DNA from: Chitinophagaceae bacterium
Lineage (GTDB): Bacteria > Bacteroidota > Bacteroidia > Chitinophagales > Chitinophagaceae
Direction: 5' to 3'
Length of the DNA stretch: 64,000 nucleotides
NCBI GenBank assembly: GCA_003168265.1
Contig: PMSV01000023.1
Coordinates: forward strand, 1 to 64,000
A program made the translations under genes and the position numbers. The notes beneath the pieces were generated by a model that did no database searches, had not been told where the DNA came from, and was given only the letters and a program-made list of their open reading frames with translations. Below, one piece after another: positions 13,824 to 27,257 of the stretch; the stretch's first letter is position 1; each line of letters opens with the position of its first letter.

Positions 13824-14933
13824 TCAAAAAAGAGTTCCCTGTTGTCCCGGCCTCCTGAACCTGATCCTGTCCAGGCTCCATTCCTCTGCATTCATCCCAT
13901 ACAATTTGCCGTATTTTTTGTACTGCTGATTGACAATCTTGGCGATATTGCCCTCGCCTCGCATCCTTACTCCCCATCTTGAATCATTGACTTTGCCATC
14001 GTGGCTTTGTTCGATCAGGTGCCATACCCTGTCGGCCCTGTCCGGAAAATTCTTATAAAGCCAATCATGAAACAGCAATTTGATCGCCCCATTCAGCCGG
14101 ATGAAAGTATAGGCAGTAAAACTTGCGCCGTGGTCGCTGGCTGCCTTCATGATACGTTGCATCTCATGCTCGTTTAGGCCGGGGATCATCGGACCCATCA
14201 TGACCCCCATTCTCACTCCTGCCTGGCTCAATTCTTCAATGACCTTAAGTTTTTGCTTCGCCGTGGTAGTGCGTGGTTCCATCGCCCTCCTTAACTCCTC
14301 ATTGAAAGAAGTAATGGAGACCATTGCTGAGACGATATTCTTTTTAGCCATCTCCTGAAGTATATCCTTATCTCTGAGAATCCAGGAATTCTTCGTCAGG
14401 ATGCCAACGGGCTGGTTGAATTCATTGCAGACTTCCAGTAAGCCCCGTGTAAGCTGGTATTTCTGTTCGGCAGGTTGGTAGCAGTCCGTATTTCCGCTGA
14501 GCATGATTGGAGTGGCATCCCATTTCGGATGCATCAGGAATTTCCGCAACAGTTTTGCTGCATTGATCTTCACGATGATCTTTCTTTCGAAATCCAGACC
14601 GGCGCTATAGCCCCAATACTCATGGACATTCCGCGCATAACAATAAATGCATCCATGTTCGCATCCTGCATAGGGATTCATGCTGTAGGACATACCCACA
14701 TCAGGACTATCCACTTTATTCACGATGGTCTTGGACTCCTGTTCCAGGTACTGGGTTGCGACCGGGGCCTCTTCCCATTCATCTATAGCTTCCTGGTGCT
14801 CCTTTGACCTTTCCTCCTTCAGGAAGCGATTCTTCGTATTGAACTGTGCCCCCCGGCCGGCGATATACGCATCCGATTCTTTTTTTTGTCCGGGATTCGT
14901 TTTATAATGATCCTGTCGAAGTGGTTCTTTCAT
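13824..14933 (-). CDS. PA0069-family radical SAM protein
   Basis: Radical S-adenosylmethionine protein related to spore photoproduct lyase-like enzymes; function unproven. The 4Fe-4S ligand pattern CX3CX2C is at Cys91, Cys95 and Cys98 (CEHGCIYCYAR), preceded by the family signature NPYAGCEHGC; a GRGAQ motif is near residue 26. The frame is open from a TTG at 14969, but the ATG at 14933 (MKEPLRQ) is preferred, giving 369 residues. It lies 96 bases downstream of the degenerate 2H gene on the same strand, next to the umuDC-like genes, which hints at a DNA-damage or nucleic-acid role. Confidence 0.88.
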   Translation of the reverse strand: MKEPLRQDHYKTNPGQKKESDAYIAGRGAQFNTKNRFLKEERSKEHQEAIDEWEEAPVATQYLEQESKTIVNKVDSPDVGMSYSMNPYAGCEHGCIYCYARNVHEYWGYSAGLDFERKIIVKINAAKLLRKFLMHPKWDATPIMLSGNTDCYQPAEQKYQLTRGLLEVCNEFNQPVGILTKNSWILRDKDILQEMAKKNIVSAMVSITSFNEELRRAMEPRTTTAKQKLKVIEELSQAGVRMGVMMGPMIPGLNEHEMQRIMKAASDHGASFTAYTFIRLNGAIKLLFHDWLYKNFPDRADRVWHLIEQSHDGKVNDSRWGVRMRGEGNIAKIVNQQYKKYGKLYGMNAEEWSLDRIRFRRPGQQGTLF

Positions 14934-15029
14934 CTGTATATTTCTTTTTGTCAGATGGAACCTCGCCAATGCATTCCTATGTATGTATCAAAATAGGCCA
15001 GCTCGGTTTCATTTGAATGATTGGTAGAC

Positions 15030-15668
15030 TCAGTCGAATAGCTCTCCCTGTTTGACATTGACAGGAAGGTTCTGAAATTCAAATCGGCTCGCAATCTGGA
15101 AAGGCTGATCATGGTGCTGATGAGGTTTTTTCAGAAGCAACATGCTATCGGCAATAAATCGGCCGCTGAAGCTCTTTTGAACATATTCTTTCCAGGCGGC
15201 TTCGAATTGTTCGGGCTGTAACTGTCTGGCGATGGTCATATTCAGTTCGTCCGGGAAATAAGGCTTTTGATTATCATTCAGCTTCAACAGGCGCTGCCAT
15301 GTCTTGATCTGTCGCACCAATTGCCGAATTGGCTCCTTTGTAGGAATTTGAATGAAAATACTATGGGTCGGAAGGCTTCCGAAATCCTTCAACTCCACCT
15401 TGATCGGATAGAATCCCATAGCAACCACTTTCAGGCGGTTAAGGATTCTTTCCTCCATCATTTCCAGTTGAACGAACCGGGCCAGCGTGATATAAGGTTT
15501 TCCAAGCCGGGCGCCTGGCGCTTTGAATTTCTCATTGAACTCCTGTCTGGCCTGGCTGATCTTTTCCCTCAAGGCTTCGTGGGGGCTGAGGATAAGGCGA
15601 TACTCGTTTTGCCTGTAGCCCGCCATTTGCATGAGGGGCAGTTCTTTTTGTGATGGTTTATATTTCAT
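15030..15668 (-). CDS. Degenerate 2'-5' RNA ligase-like (2H phosphoesterase) protein
   Basis: 212 residues matching the 2'-5' RNA ligase-like family common in Chitinophagaceae. Family members normally carry two HxT motifs as catalytic residues, in contexts such as KPHLTL and EPHLTIAR. Here the first is KPYITLARF (Tyr59 in place of His) and the second is ELNMTIAR (Asn143 in place of His), so both catalytic histidines are absent while the surroundings are kept. It may bind RNA or nucleotides without hydrolysis. Start ATG at 15668; transcribed divergently from umuD across a compact promoter region. Confidence 0.75.
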   Translation of the reverse strand: MKYKPSQKELPLMQMAGYRQNEYRLILSPHEALREKISQARQEFNEKFKAPGARLGKPYITLARFVQLEMMEERILNRLKVVAMGFYPIKVELKDFGSLPTHSIFIQIPTKEPIRQLVRQIKTWQRLLKLNDNQKPYFPDELNMTIARQLQPEQFEAAWKEYVQKSFSGRFIADSMLLLKKPHQHHDQPFQIASRFEFQNLPVNVKQGELFD

Positions 15669-15672
15669 GGTT

Positions 15673-15729
15673 TTTGGTATGATTAATAATTTAGCATAAA
15701 TTTACTAAATAAATTAGTAAACTACCAAA
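15673..15729. promoter_or_regulatory. Overlapping divergent Bacteroidota promoters sharing one palindromic -7 box
   Basis: Plus strand: -33 TTTG at 15673-15676, 20-base spacer, -7 TAAATTTA at 15697-15704, leading to umuD (ATG 15738). Minus strand: -33 TTTG read from 15729-15726 (CAAA on plus), 21-base spacer, and the same octamer TAAATTTA, which is its own reverse complement, leading to the 2H gene (ATG 15668). Each -7 matches TAnnTTTG at 5 of 6 fixed positions. If both are used, polymerase can occupy only one direction at a time. Confidence 0.55.
15701..15721. promoter_or_regulatory. Inverted repeat in the umuD / 2H divergent promoter, probable operator
   Basis: TTTACTAA (15701-15708), 5-base centre, TTAGTAAA (15714-15721), exact 8-base arms. 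It overlaps the -7 box and start region of the umuD promoter and the spacer of the opposite promoter, a position where a bound repressor would block both. The cognate regulator (a LexA-like or XRE protein would be expected for a mutagenesis operon) is not in the window. Confidence 0.5.
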
Positions 15730-15737
15730 TCAATTTT

Positions 15738-16190
15738 ATGGACGGAGAAAATTTTGATGGCGACATGATCTACAACGCTGCCTACCGGGGTTCAAAGACT
15801 TATACCCAGCAAAACCTCCGCAAGGCCAATGCGACCGGTTTCACTGCTGCTGCGGACGATTATATGGAAAGAGGCATCGATCTCAACGAGCAACTGATCC
15901 GCAACAAGCCCTCCACTTTCTTCATGCGGGTAAAAGGAAATGCCATGGAAGGGGCTGGCATCTTTCATGGAGATATCGTCATCGTCGACCGTTCCATTAA
16001 ACCGGTCAGTGGTAAAATAATTATCGCCAACCTCAATGGGGAAATGCTCATACGGAGGCTGGACAAATCCTTTAACAAGATCCGTTTGTTGCCGGCTTCT
16101 GCAAATCTGGCACCGTTAGAGGTAGATATTTCCGCTGCAGATTTTTCTGTTTGGGGAGTAGTCACTTATAATATCCATGTGCCTGCCTGA
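15738..16190 (+). CDS. umuD: UmuD-like S24 protein lacking the Ser-Lys catalytic dyad
   Basis: Accessory subunit of the UmuC translesion polymerase (Pol V type). It aligns well with E. coli UmuD: GFTAAADDYMERGIDLN (residues 34-50) corresponds to the segment after the UmuD cleavage site, and GIFHGDIVIVD to the S24 core. The catalytic serine motif GDSM is replaced by GNAM (Ala69, equivalent to Ser60), and the general-base Lys97 position is Arg106 (GEMLIRRL). The residue before the cleavage Gly is Thr33 rather than Cys or Ala. It should therefore be unable to cleave itself. Length 150. The umuC gene follows 21 bases later. Confidence 0.88.
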   Translation: MDGENFDGDMIYNAAYRGSKTYTQQNLRKANATGFTAAADDYMERGIDLNEQLIRNKPSTFFMRVKGNAMEGAGIFHGDIVIVDRSIKPVSGKIIIANLNGEMLIRRLDKSFNKIRLLPASANLAPLEVDISAADFSVWGVVTYNIHVPA

Positions 16191-16211: not shown

Positions 16212-17486
16212 ATGAAGGCAATTGTAGATTGTAATAGCTTTTATTGTTCCTGCGAACGCCTCTTCCGGCCCGAACTGAATAACCGGCCTGTCGTGGTATT
16301 GAGCAACAATGACGGTTGCATCATTTCCCGAAGCGACGAAGCCAAAGCCCTTGGCATCGGCATGGGAGGCCCTTTTTTCATGGCCCGGCATCAGCTTGAA
16401 AAAAACAATATTTCTGTTTTTTCATCCAACTACCATCTTTACGGAGATATAAGCATGCGCGTCATGGACTCCCTGCGTTCCATAGTCGGTGAAAAAAATG
16501 TGGAAGTTTATTCAGTGGACGAAGCCTTTCTTGGCCTTGATGAAATAGACCCGCATGAACTCCCCGGTCTGGCACATCGTCTCAAGGAAACCGTCGAAAC
16601 ATGGACAGGTATTCCGGTATCGGTAGGCATTGCTCCCAGCAAGACCCTCGCTAAGATCGCCAACAACATTGCTAAAAAGGACAAGCAAGGAACAGGATGT
16701 ATTCACCTGCTCCTGACCGATCCCTCCTTTCATCAGGCGCTCAAGAAAACCCGTGTCGATGCCATCTGGGGTGTCGGGCGTTCTTTTGCGAATAAACTGA
16801 TCGACTTGGGCATTACCAGCGCCTGGGAGCTCTCCCAAATGCCCGAAGAATGGGCCTGTCGCAACCTGGGCGGGGTAGTGGGACAGCGACTGATCCTCGA
16901 ACTCAAGGGGAAGCCCTCCATCAGCCTGAAAAAGGAACTCGAAATAAAAAAGATGATTACGACCACCCGCATGTTTGGAAGGCAGGTAACCGAACTCTCC
17001 GAATTGAAGGAAGCTGTGGCGACCTATACCACCCTGGCAGCAGAAAAGCTAAGAAGACAAAATAGCGCAGCCAGTCAGATCCAGGTCTTCCTGGTCTCAA
17101 GAGAGGAAGATCACCTGGCCGGTTATCATCCGGATAATCATCAAAGTACAAATCTGCCGGCAGCCACTTCCCTTACCCACGAATTGATCAGGCCTGCGAT
17201 CAGGCTGGTGGATCAGATCTTCAAAAGCGGGCAGGCCTATAAAAAAGCAGGAGTCTTGTTGAGTGGGTTGGTTCCGGATGGTTCGATCCAGGGGAATTTT
17301 TTCTCGGGTCCGTCTCAGGCAAGAGATCGCCGGCTCATGAGCGCCGTAGACAATCTCAATTACAGTATGCGCAGCGAGATGGTCAAATTTTCCGCTACTG
17401 GCATTAAAAAGGACTGGAAAATGCGTCAGGAACTAAGATCTCCAAGGCATACAACACGATGGGAGGAATTGAAAGAAGTCAGTTGA
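16212..17486 (+). CDS. umuC: Y-family DNA polymerase UmuC (Pol V catalytic subunit)
   Basis: Error-prone translesion DNA polymerase. Active-site carboxylates are intact: Asp6 in IVDCNSFYCSCER and Asp103/Glu104 in YSVDEAF. The helix-hairpin-helix/little-finger region and the C-terminal UmuC extension (SGLVPDGSIQGNFF, then AVDNLNYSMRSEMVKF) are present; 424 residues is the usual length. Downstream of the UmuD-like gene, same operon. Its stop codon is directly followed by that of the convergent EamA gene. A second Y-family polymerase, dinB, lies at 26112. Confidence 0.95.
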   Translation: MKAIVDCNSFYCSCERLFRPELNNRPVVVLSNNDGCIISRSDEAKALGIGMGGPFFMARHQLEKNNISVFSSNYHLYGDISMRVMDSLRSIVGEKNVEVYSVDEAFLGLDEIDPHELPGLAHRLKETVETWTGIPVSVGIAPSKTLAKIANNIAKKDKQGTGCIHLLLTDPSFHQALKKTRVDAIWGVGRSFANKLIDLGITSAWELSQMPEEWACRNLGGVVGQRLILELKGKPSISLKKELEIKKMITTTRMFGRQVTELSELKEAVATYTTLAAEKLRRQNSAASQIQVFLVSREEDHLAGYHPDNHQSTNLPAATSLTHELIRPAIRLVDQIFKSGQAYKKAGVLLSGLVPDGSIQGNFFSGPSQARDRRLMSAVDNLNYSMRSEMVKFSATGIKKDWKMRQELRSPRHTTRWEELKEVS

Positions 17487-26111: not shown

Positions 26112-27257
26112 ATGGATAATCAGCAAAGAATCATCGCCCATTTTGACCTCGATACTTTTTTTGTATCGGTAGAAAGGCTCAATGACCCTTCGCTGGCGGG
26201 CAAGCCCCTGATCGTTGGCGGCCGGGAAAGGGGAGTGGTAGCCGCCTGCAGTTATGAAACACGAAAGTTCGGCGTGCATTCTGCCATGCCCATGAAGACA
26301 GCGCTCAAACTATGTCCCCAGGCCATTGTCCTCGGAGGCTCACGTTCCGAATACAGCAAATATTCCCGCTGCGTCACTTCTATTATCGCAGCCAGGGCGC
26401 CTGTTTACGAACGCGCTTCCATCGATGAATTTTACCTTGATCTCACCGGAATGCAGAAATATTTTCAACCCTATCAATGGGTTATTGATTTGCGTAAGGA
26501 GATCACGGAAAAAACCAAACTACCCATATCATTCGGACTGGCATCCAATAAAATGGTCGCCAAAATGGCCACGGATGAAGCAAAGCCCAATGGTTATCTA
26601 TACGTCCCTTTCGGAAGGGAAAAAGAGTTTCTATCCCCACTCAGGATCAACAAGATTCCGGGTGTCGGCGATCAGACCTTCAAAGCCCTTTCTGAACTGG
26701 GAGTCACGAAGATCCGGGAGCTCGCCGAATATCCCATCACACAAATCGAAAAAAGATTCGGGAAATATGGCATCGAACTTCATCGCAAAGCCAACGGCAT
26801 CCATGAAGGGGAAGTGATTCCCTATCATGAATCCAAATCCATATCTACGGAATCAACCTTTGAAGAAAACAAGACAGACCTACATTTTTTAATGAAAGAA
26901 CTAGTTCGCATGGTAGAAAAGATCGCCCATGAACTCCGAAGCCAGGATAAAGTCACCGGCTGCATCGCAATTAAGATCCGTTATCCGGATTTTGAAACGA
27001 CGACCAGGCAACTCAGCATTCCTTTTACCTGTTACGATGACGAACTCATTGCCAATGCGAAAGAGCTCTTTCACAAACTCTATCGCAAAGGACAGCCGGT
27101 CAGGTTATTGGGCGCCCGCCTAAGTGAATTGACCGATCAGGCTATCCAATCCAACCTCTTTCAGGATCTTGAAAAAAAATCCGGCATGTATAAGGCTATT
27201 GATGAATTAAAGGAAAGGTTTGGGAAAAATATGATTACCAAGGGGGGAGGCATATAA
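26112..27257 (+). CDS. dinB: DNA polymerase IV (DinB)
   Basis: Y-family translesion polymerase, prone to -1 frameshifts and active opposite N2-dG lesions. Catalytic carboxylates are intact: Asp12 (AHFDLDTFF) and Asp105/Glu106 (SIDEFYLDL); the steric-gate region FFVSVE, the HhH domain (INKIPGVGDQTFKALSELG) and the little finger are present. It lacks an obvious C-terminal clamp-binding peptide, although QSNLFQDL near residue 357 may serve. 381 residues. Begins 11 bases after rimM. Confidence 0.95.
   Translation: MDNQQRIIAHFDLDTFFVSVERLNDPSLAGKPLIVGGRERGVVAACSYETRKFGVHSAMPMKTALKLCPQAIVLGGSRSEYSKYSRCVTSIIAARAPVYERASIDEFYLDLTGMQKYFQPYQWVIDLRKEITEKTKLPISFGLASNKMVAKMATDEAKPNGYLYVPFGREKEFLSPLRINKIPGVGDQTFKALSELGVTKIRELAEYPITQIEKRFGKYGIELHRKANGIHEGEVIPYHESKSISTESTFEENKTDLHFLMKELVRMVEKIAHELRSQDKVTGCIAIKIRYPDFETTTRQLSIPFTCYDDELIANAKELFHKLYRKGQPVRLLGARLSELTDQAIQSNLFQDLEKKSGMYKAIDELKERFGKNMITKGGGI

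Follow-up and report, generated by a model that had tools for sequence, protein, structure and literature searches.

Cells are usually explained to hold back their most error-prone polymerase through the conversion of UmuD to UmuD', which RecA drives. The stretch of Chitinophagaceae DNA analyzed here (64,000 nucleotides of contig PMSV01000023.1, assembly GCA_003168265.1; hereafter the window) raises the question of how such a polymerase would be controlled where UmuD lacks the residues for cutting itself, as an earlier sequence-only reading had proposed for one gene of the window. We find this loss across related bacteria, suggesting that they run an error-prone polymerase without the usual self-cutting step.

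A UmuD homolog without the catalytic dyad

The umuD gene of the window (positions 15738..16190, plus strand), recognized from its open reading frame, profile matches and alignment, encodes a protein of 150 amino acids. This protein matches Pfam Peptidase_S24 at 79.9 bits (cut-off 23.3) and NF007621, the "Pol V autoproteolytic subunit", at 124.8 bits (cut-off 110). AlphaFold2 predicted a confident fold for residues 51-150 (block means of 88-98 pLDDT), and the best PDB matches of the predicted structure in Foldseek were the UmuD' entries 1umu and 1ay9 (TM by target 0.92) and RecA-bound 8gmt (0.95). The S24/UmuD fold is therefore kept, as the sequence-only reading had stated, and the protein is of the Chitinophagaceae UmuD type. 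Alignment to solved UmuD chains, namely the UmuD' of 1umu and 8gmt_B (a K97A form with V-A-K-L in place of the UmuD V-K-K-L), places Ala69 (codon GCC, 15942-15944, plus strand) opposite Escherichia coli Ser60 and Arg106 (codon CGG, 16053-16055, plus strand) opposite Lys97, bearing out the claim that both dyad residues are replaced. The old scissile pair, the counterpart of Cys24-Gly25 in E. coli, is Thr33-Gly34 (15834-15839, plus strand). Descent, fold and gene context thus mark the window protein as a UmuD, yet it fails three features of autoproteolytic UmuD: the catalytic serine (Ala69), the catalytic lysine (Arg106) and an Ala/Cys-Gly scissile bond with a hydrophobic P3 (here Asn-Ala-Thr-Gly). 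Since it nonetheless passes the NF007621 cut-off, the label "autoproteolytic subunit" is unfit for proteins of this kind.

Two further parts of that reading also stand. The N-terminal arm (residues 1-32; 15738..15833, plus strand) is still encoded, and an intact umuC encoding 424 amino acids begins 21 bp past the umuD stop codon. A second, catalytically intact umuD was sought and not found in the source assembly, whose completeness is given as 100%; its sole other S24 match is a helix-turn-helix repressor with an intact dyad.

Dyad loss in Chitinophagaceae and in a second Bacteroidota family

Of 244 Chitinophagaceae genomes, 152 had a UmuD-like match of either type to the window protein. A survey of the phylum gave a match in 300 of 395 genomes, many of them weak and only part of them read: outside family f1 we read 39 unique sequences and then 20 more, 16 of which were picked as members of family f44, so this family is over-sampled. 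The 217 unique UmuDs gathered became 215 in the tree (FastTree, dyad and P1 columns removed) after three shorter than 100 amino acids were excluded and E. coli UmuD was added; clade counts given below are of unique proteins, not species.

The window UmuD falls within a clade of 126 Chitinophagaceae proteins, with Puia, Niastella, Agriterribacter and Terrimonas among the members that have names. Its states at positions 60 and 97 are Ala/Arg in 99, Ser/Arg in 24, Thr/Arg in two and Cys/Arg in one; Lys97 is kept in none of the 126, and Ser60 is also missing in 102 and kept in 24. FastTree support for this clade is 0.335 when two Ser/Lys sequences are excluded and 0.99 with both inside, and a quick IQ-TREE run with 44 of the 126 members gave a support of 100. 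A second dyad-less clade has 22 members (18 Ala/Arg, three Gly/Arg, one Asn/Arg), 21 from family f44, which belongs to another class of Bacteroidota, and one, L046, from family f17; L046 sits on a long branch and is placed elsewhere in the UmuC tree. Among the other 67 UmuDs, 61 are Ser/Lys, five Ser/Arg and one Ala/Arg. A control set of UmuD-like genes (80 viral contigs and one Synechocystis plasmid) was Ser/Lys in 79 of 81, the two exceptions being Ala/Arg and Arg/Arg, both with arginine at the lysine position.

Chance or sequencing error behind the dyad loss can be rejected because the changes recur in 126 unique relatives; being common to the clade, they are not a single oddity either. The loss is real, conserved and wider than first noted. 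We found no account of a natural dyad-less UmuD in the open-access literature searched.

Order and number of the losses

Position 97 is lysine in 61 and arginine in 154 of the 215 UmuDs, and nothing else. Ser60 is missing in none of the 61 Lys-bearing proteins and kept in 29 Arg-bearing ones; as Ser60 is never absent where Lys97 is present, the pattern fits a lysine that was lost first and a serine replaced later. The Arg97 codon is CGN in 97 of 126 main-clade and 19 of 22 second-clade members, which, lying at least two base changes from AAA or AAG, argues that the Lys-to-Arg change is old and has been kept. Lys-to-Arg mutants of S24 proteins are inactive or nearly so. A search of the open-access literature for LexA mutants of the K156R type found no mention of them.

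The two dyad-less clades stand apart both in the UmuD tree and in a FastTree of UmuC, where the nearest neighbors of the f44 proteins are Ser/Lys UmuCs from family f42 (support 0.98). A single origin was not rejected when 55 UmuCs were put to an AU test (p = 0.505), the tree joining the clades being even 0.79 log units better, and we therefore claim two clades without claiming that they arose separately.

The former cleavage site

The sequence around the old scissile bond has changed along with the dyad. Among Ser/Lys UmuDs, P1 is Ala in 57 of 60 and P3 is Val, Ile or Leu in all 60, with G-F-P-S-P-A after the site; in the main clade P1 is Thr in 115 of 125 and P3 is Asn or Asp in 120 of 125, with mostly G-F-G-A-A-A after it. 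In f44 and L046, P1 is Thr in 22 of 22, P3 is still Ile, Met or Leu in 13 of 22 and the S-P at P4'-P5' is present in 22 of 22, so the rewriting of the site is less complete there. P1 Thr alone is no proof of non-cleavage, since a T-G site occurs in seven of the 81 control sequences, all seven Ser/Lys; the two dyad-less controls carry A-G. Residues at P1 and position 97 are strongly associated on raw counts (58/1/2/152 of 213; Fisher p of about 1e-48), but the association rests on six or seven changes in a 133-row tree, with one or two independent pairs on supported branches, and for this reason we give no corrected significance.

A retained N-terminal arm with its own motif

The arm carries a clade motif, Y-x-G-S-K-x-[FY]-x-Q, which in the window protein reads YRGSKTYTQ (residues 16-24). 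The motif, derived from the clade before counting, is found in 111 of 125 main-clade arms and none of 60 canonical ones. Arm length before the Gly is 28 residues in 111 of 125 main-clade proteins and ranges from 12 to 158 in canonical UmuDs, although our start-codon rule leans on the window protein and may make the clade lengths look more uniform. For arms of 20-45 residues, to which the comparison was confined, mean arm identity in the clade versus canonical UmuDs was 0.48 versus 0.17 at a core identity of 0.3-0.4 and 0.52 versus 0.25 at 0.5-0.6; close pairs gave 0.51 versus 0.44 (core 0.7-0.8) and 0.66 versus 0.61 (0.8-0.9). The f44 arm shows no such excess (0.29 versus 0.25 in canonical UmuDs at a core identity of 0.5-0.6). 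Judged by these identities, only the Chitinophagaceae clade has an arm more conserved than that of cleavable UmuDs, and there the excess is clear among distant relatives and small in close pairs. AlphaFold2 gave the arm block a mean pLDDT of 40-54 in the window UmuD and 47-60 in a cleavable control, low values that do not set the two apart.

A few Chitinophagaceae UmuDs lack the arm. Three of 125 amino acids (L176, L185 and L186) begin at Met-Gly-Phe, with 10 more in-frame codons before a stop; they are Ser/Arg and have an overlapping umuC and two perfect LexA-type boxes. A similar protein of 123 amino acids (L178), also beginning at Met-Gly-Phe, is Ala/Arg and has a box with one mismatch. The genomes of L176, L185, L186 and L178 (G277, G219, G141 and G138) also encode a dyad-less UmuD of full length, so that some strains carry both this and a UmuD'-form, the latter with Arg97.

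Purifying selection and the partner polymerase

Over 61 close pairs (pS 0.05-0.6; the pairs overlap, sharing sequences), dN/dS was lowest for residues 33-52 (0.015), intermediate for the core (0.080) and highest for the arm (0.205). The residues around the former cleavage site (33-52; 15834..15893, plus strand) are thus the most conserved block in the clade, and the arm is nonetheless the least constrained part of the protein within it.

The neighboring umuC (16212..17486, plus strand) encodes a Y-family DNA polymerase with IMS, IMS_C and DUF4113 domains and the catalytic motif S-V-D-E. A downstream umuC is present at 104 of 126 main-clade loci, and S-x-D-E is found in all 98 copies of at least 400 amino acids. 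Five of the 22 loci without one have an opposite-strand umuC in the same stretch, and some of the stretches end too soon. A whole-genome search for 14 of the 22 found a umuC at 55-61% identity in nine, one at only 42-46% in four and, in G295, no match at the UmuC level; the cognate umuC was thus not found in five of the 14 genomes searched. The UmuD of G295 (L165) has lost the G-F motif, as if UmuD erodes once its polymerase goes. L090 is an exception, because the only UmuC of its genome is at 46% and yet its site looks intact.

A predicted transcriptional layer of damage control

The sequence-only reading had concluded that control of Pol V must come from elsewhere than self-cleavage, and a LexA-type box upstream of umuD agrees with this. 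An earlier study reports that Bacteroidetes are without a classical LexA, that an S24 phage-type repressor binds CTAA-N5-TTAG instead and that umuDC lies within the regulon of this repressor, Chitinophagaceae included (PMC8565304); the parts of that study examined hold no remark on the UmuD dyad. The window has a predicted non-canonical Bacteroidetes LexA operator of this form, CTAAATAAATTAG (15705..15717), inside a longer palindrome (TTTACTAA..TTAGTAAA) and 20 bp before the umuD start codon; the genome contains 34 perfect sites in all, this one included. A perfect box lies at most 200 bp upstream in 118 of 124 main-clade genes, compared with 0.8 in shuffles, and is found at 15 of 59 canonical umuDs and none of 22 in f44. 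GGA-N5-TCC occurs in three of the 22 f44 promoters, and on these counts neither box accounts for the promoters of this family. Several f44 umuD promoters (among L258, L260, L262, L270, L222, L274 and L266) have ACACATAT and ACATAT-N-ATATGT repeats, and it is possible that these form another operator in this family.

A candidate for the repressor is encoded in the same genome as the window UmuD: a protein of 251 amino acids with HTH_3 and S24 domains, Ala-Gly pairs and both Ser138 (in GDSM) and Lys177 kept. One box lies just before the start codon of this candidate, and another about 110 bp before a recA match. Given the box and the intact repressor dyad, the SOS response seems to have its transcriptional layer but lacks the post-translational one at UmuD. 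Damage control of Pol V in the clade most likely stays at transcription, with the self-cleavage switch gone.

Upstream of umuD, on the minus strand, lie a divergent gene for a protein of the 2'-5' RNA ligase superfamily (LigT-like; 15030..15668) and a gene for a PA0069-family radical SAM protein (13824..14969). Of the clade loci, 123 offer 900 bp or more of upstream sequence, and among these the divergent LigT-like gene is present at 101 and a radical SAM relative at 92; these neighbors are found at none of 52 canonical and none of 22 f44 loci. The LigT-like, radical SAM and umuD genes may possibly form a conserved damage-response neighborhood.

How a UmuD without self-cleavage might work

We lean, by a small measure, toward a reading in which the clade UmuD is a permanent, full-length, UmuD'-like subunit of UmuC that has lost self-cleavage, is controlled by transcription and has an arm with a job of its own. 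The dyad-less protein would dimerize and stay bound to UmuC throughout, its working state being UmuD'-like and arm-free, and each derepression of the operon would yield active polymerase. DNA damage would then be sensed once, by the self-cleaving LexA-type repressor, where E. coli senses it twice. The arm, never cut off, would have become a conserved element with its own task, such as docking a partner or serving as a degradation tag.

The changes at the former site bear on where the arm lies. The sequence-only reading had taken the protein for a natural copy of E. coli S60A, and this part does not hold, since P1, P3 and the PSP turn are replaced here, unlike in S60A. For the same reason one cannot take it for granted that the arm docks in the old cleft, and an arm-free, UmuD'-like state seems at least as likely as a docked arm. 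Besides this rewritten site, the clade-wide dyad loss under purifying selection, the kept umuC, the upstream box and the arm motif favor the UmuD'-like subunit, as does a laboratory precedent, UmuD 3A, which one study describes as a UmuD' mimic and cites as non-cleavable (PMC5342242). The same study states that the arms-down position is still available to the arm of S60A. Several points tell against a UmuD'-like subunit. The uncleavable E. coli forms S60A and K97A strongly lower mutagenesis, and UmuC is held at the membrane by K97A, as two reports describe (PMC3901139, PMC4552617); these phenotypes are the opposite of those of an active subunit. Further, an arm that is merely out of the way could be deleted, as in L176, L185 and L186, so its conservation may equally mean docking. 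The weak constraint on the arm within the clade, its small excess of identity in close pairs, the different arm of f44 and the five genomes in which the search gave no cognate umuC also count against this reading.

A broader formulation, plausible though we hold it tentatively, is that a class of Pol V is activated without cleavage of UmuD. In Chitinophagaceae its UmuD would be a permanent pseudo-protease with the site fixed as Asn/Asp-Ala-Thr-Gly and the arm recruited for docking or control, and the LexA-type repressor would be the sole damage-sensing layer. The second Bacteroidota family is likewise dyad-less, with the site x-Glu-Thr-Gly.

The alternative that survives best, although we consider it unlikely, is that UmuD acts as a permanent brake, in which the uncleavable protein would hold UmuC, and perhaps DinB, in an inactive or checkpoint state, like S60A in E. 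coli, and mutagenic synthesis would rarely or never be unleashed. The S60A and K97A phenotypes favor it (PMC3901139, PMC4552617), as does the conservation of the arm among distant clade members, given that the E. coli arm carries partner-binding sites in the account of PMC5342242. Yet P1, P3 and the PSP turn, which should keep the arm in place at the cleft, have been replaced, and a polymerase that is never used would have no need of the S-x-D-E motif found in every full-length UmuC.

Removal of the arm in trans by another protease, for instance a housekeeping protease or the LexA-type S24 repressor, strikes us as improbable. The extreme conservation of residues 33-52 at the junction and the intact S24 dyad elsewhere in the genome would suit it, but with Asn at P3 and Thr at P1 the junction is unlike an S24 site, and because residues 34-52 are retained in the UmuD' form their conservation needs no cleavage.

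Self-cleavage through other catalytic residues, which the sequence-only reading had named as a result that would overturn it, is very improbable. Position 57 is Lys in 99% of the Ala/Arg proteins, while few canonical ones have such a residue there (7% Lys/His), and Thr60, Ser86 and Thr143 are conserved; these last three are, however, also conserved in canonical UmuD (77-97%), where none is a known nucleophile, and Ser/Thr19, Lys20 and Thr33, which are specific to the clade, belong to the arm or to the site itself. Conservation thus gives no convincing new nucleophile in the globular domain, and the claim of a lost dyad stands to that extent. That the protein is a decaying relic or a sequence error without function has next to no probability and is refuted for the clade as a whole, since strong purifying selection, the conserved neighborhood and box and the recurrence in 126 unique proteins outweigh the loss of two catalytic residues and the eroded sites of a few members without a cognate umuC (L165, L170).

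Comparison with known UmuD systems

The clade resembles E. coli UmuD, the Pol V manager of peptidase family S24, in its fold, its umuD-umuC gene order and the SOS-type box upstream; it differs in having no Ser-Lys dyad, a P3 that is not hydrophobic, Thr at P1, a lost PSP turn and a non-removable arm with its own motif. HumD of phage P1 is UmuD'-like and is reported to lack the arm; the clade likewise avoids the cleavage step but keeps the arm. Engineered S60A and K97A share with the clade a missing catalytic residue and a full-length protein, but each is a single laboratory change that leaves the site and arm as they were, whereas in the clade both residues and the site have been replaced and fixed by evolution. 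The best functional analog is UmuD 3A (T14A L17A F18A), whose altered arm binds the globular domain weakly according to PMC5342242; 3A was made in the laboratory, while the arm of the clade is also under selection. UmuDAb of Acinetobacter is likewise a UmuD with a different role, as two studies relate (PMC8565304, PMC11332147), but unlike the clade protein it has a DNA-binding domain and still self-cleaves (PMC8565304).

A large natural group that lacks the cleavage residues, yet keeps the polymerase, a damage-type box and the arm, opens a direct way of asking what cleavage is for. The clade also allows one to ask which effects of cleavage can be carried by transcription alone, and what role the arm has beyond being removed.

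Further features of umuC and its surroundings

One column of UmuC, numbered 385 after E. coli and near or in DUF4113, is Arg in 98% of 98 clade UmuCs and Gly in 98% of 47 canonical ones, making it a candidate for a co-change in the partner. Small open reading frames lie between umuD and umuC at L054, L056, L070, L106, L109, L119 and L132 (and at L121 and L193), and by eye they resemble REP-associated (Y1-type) transposases. A second Y-family polymerase, of the DinB type, is encoded in the window at 26112-27254 (plus strand), and a third on contig C17.
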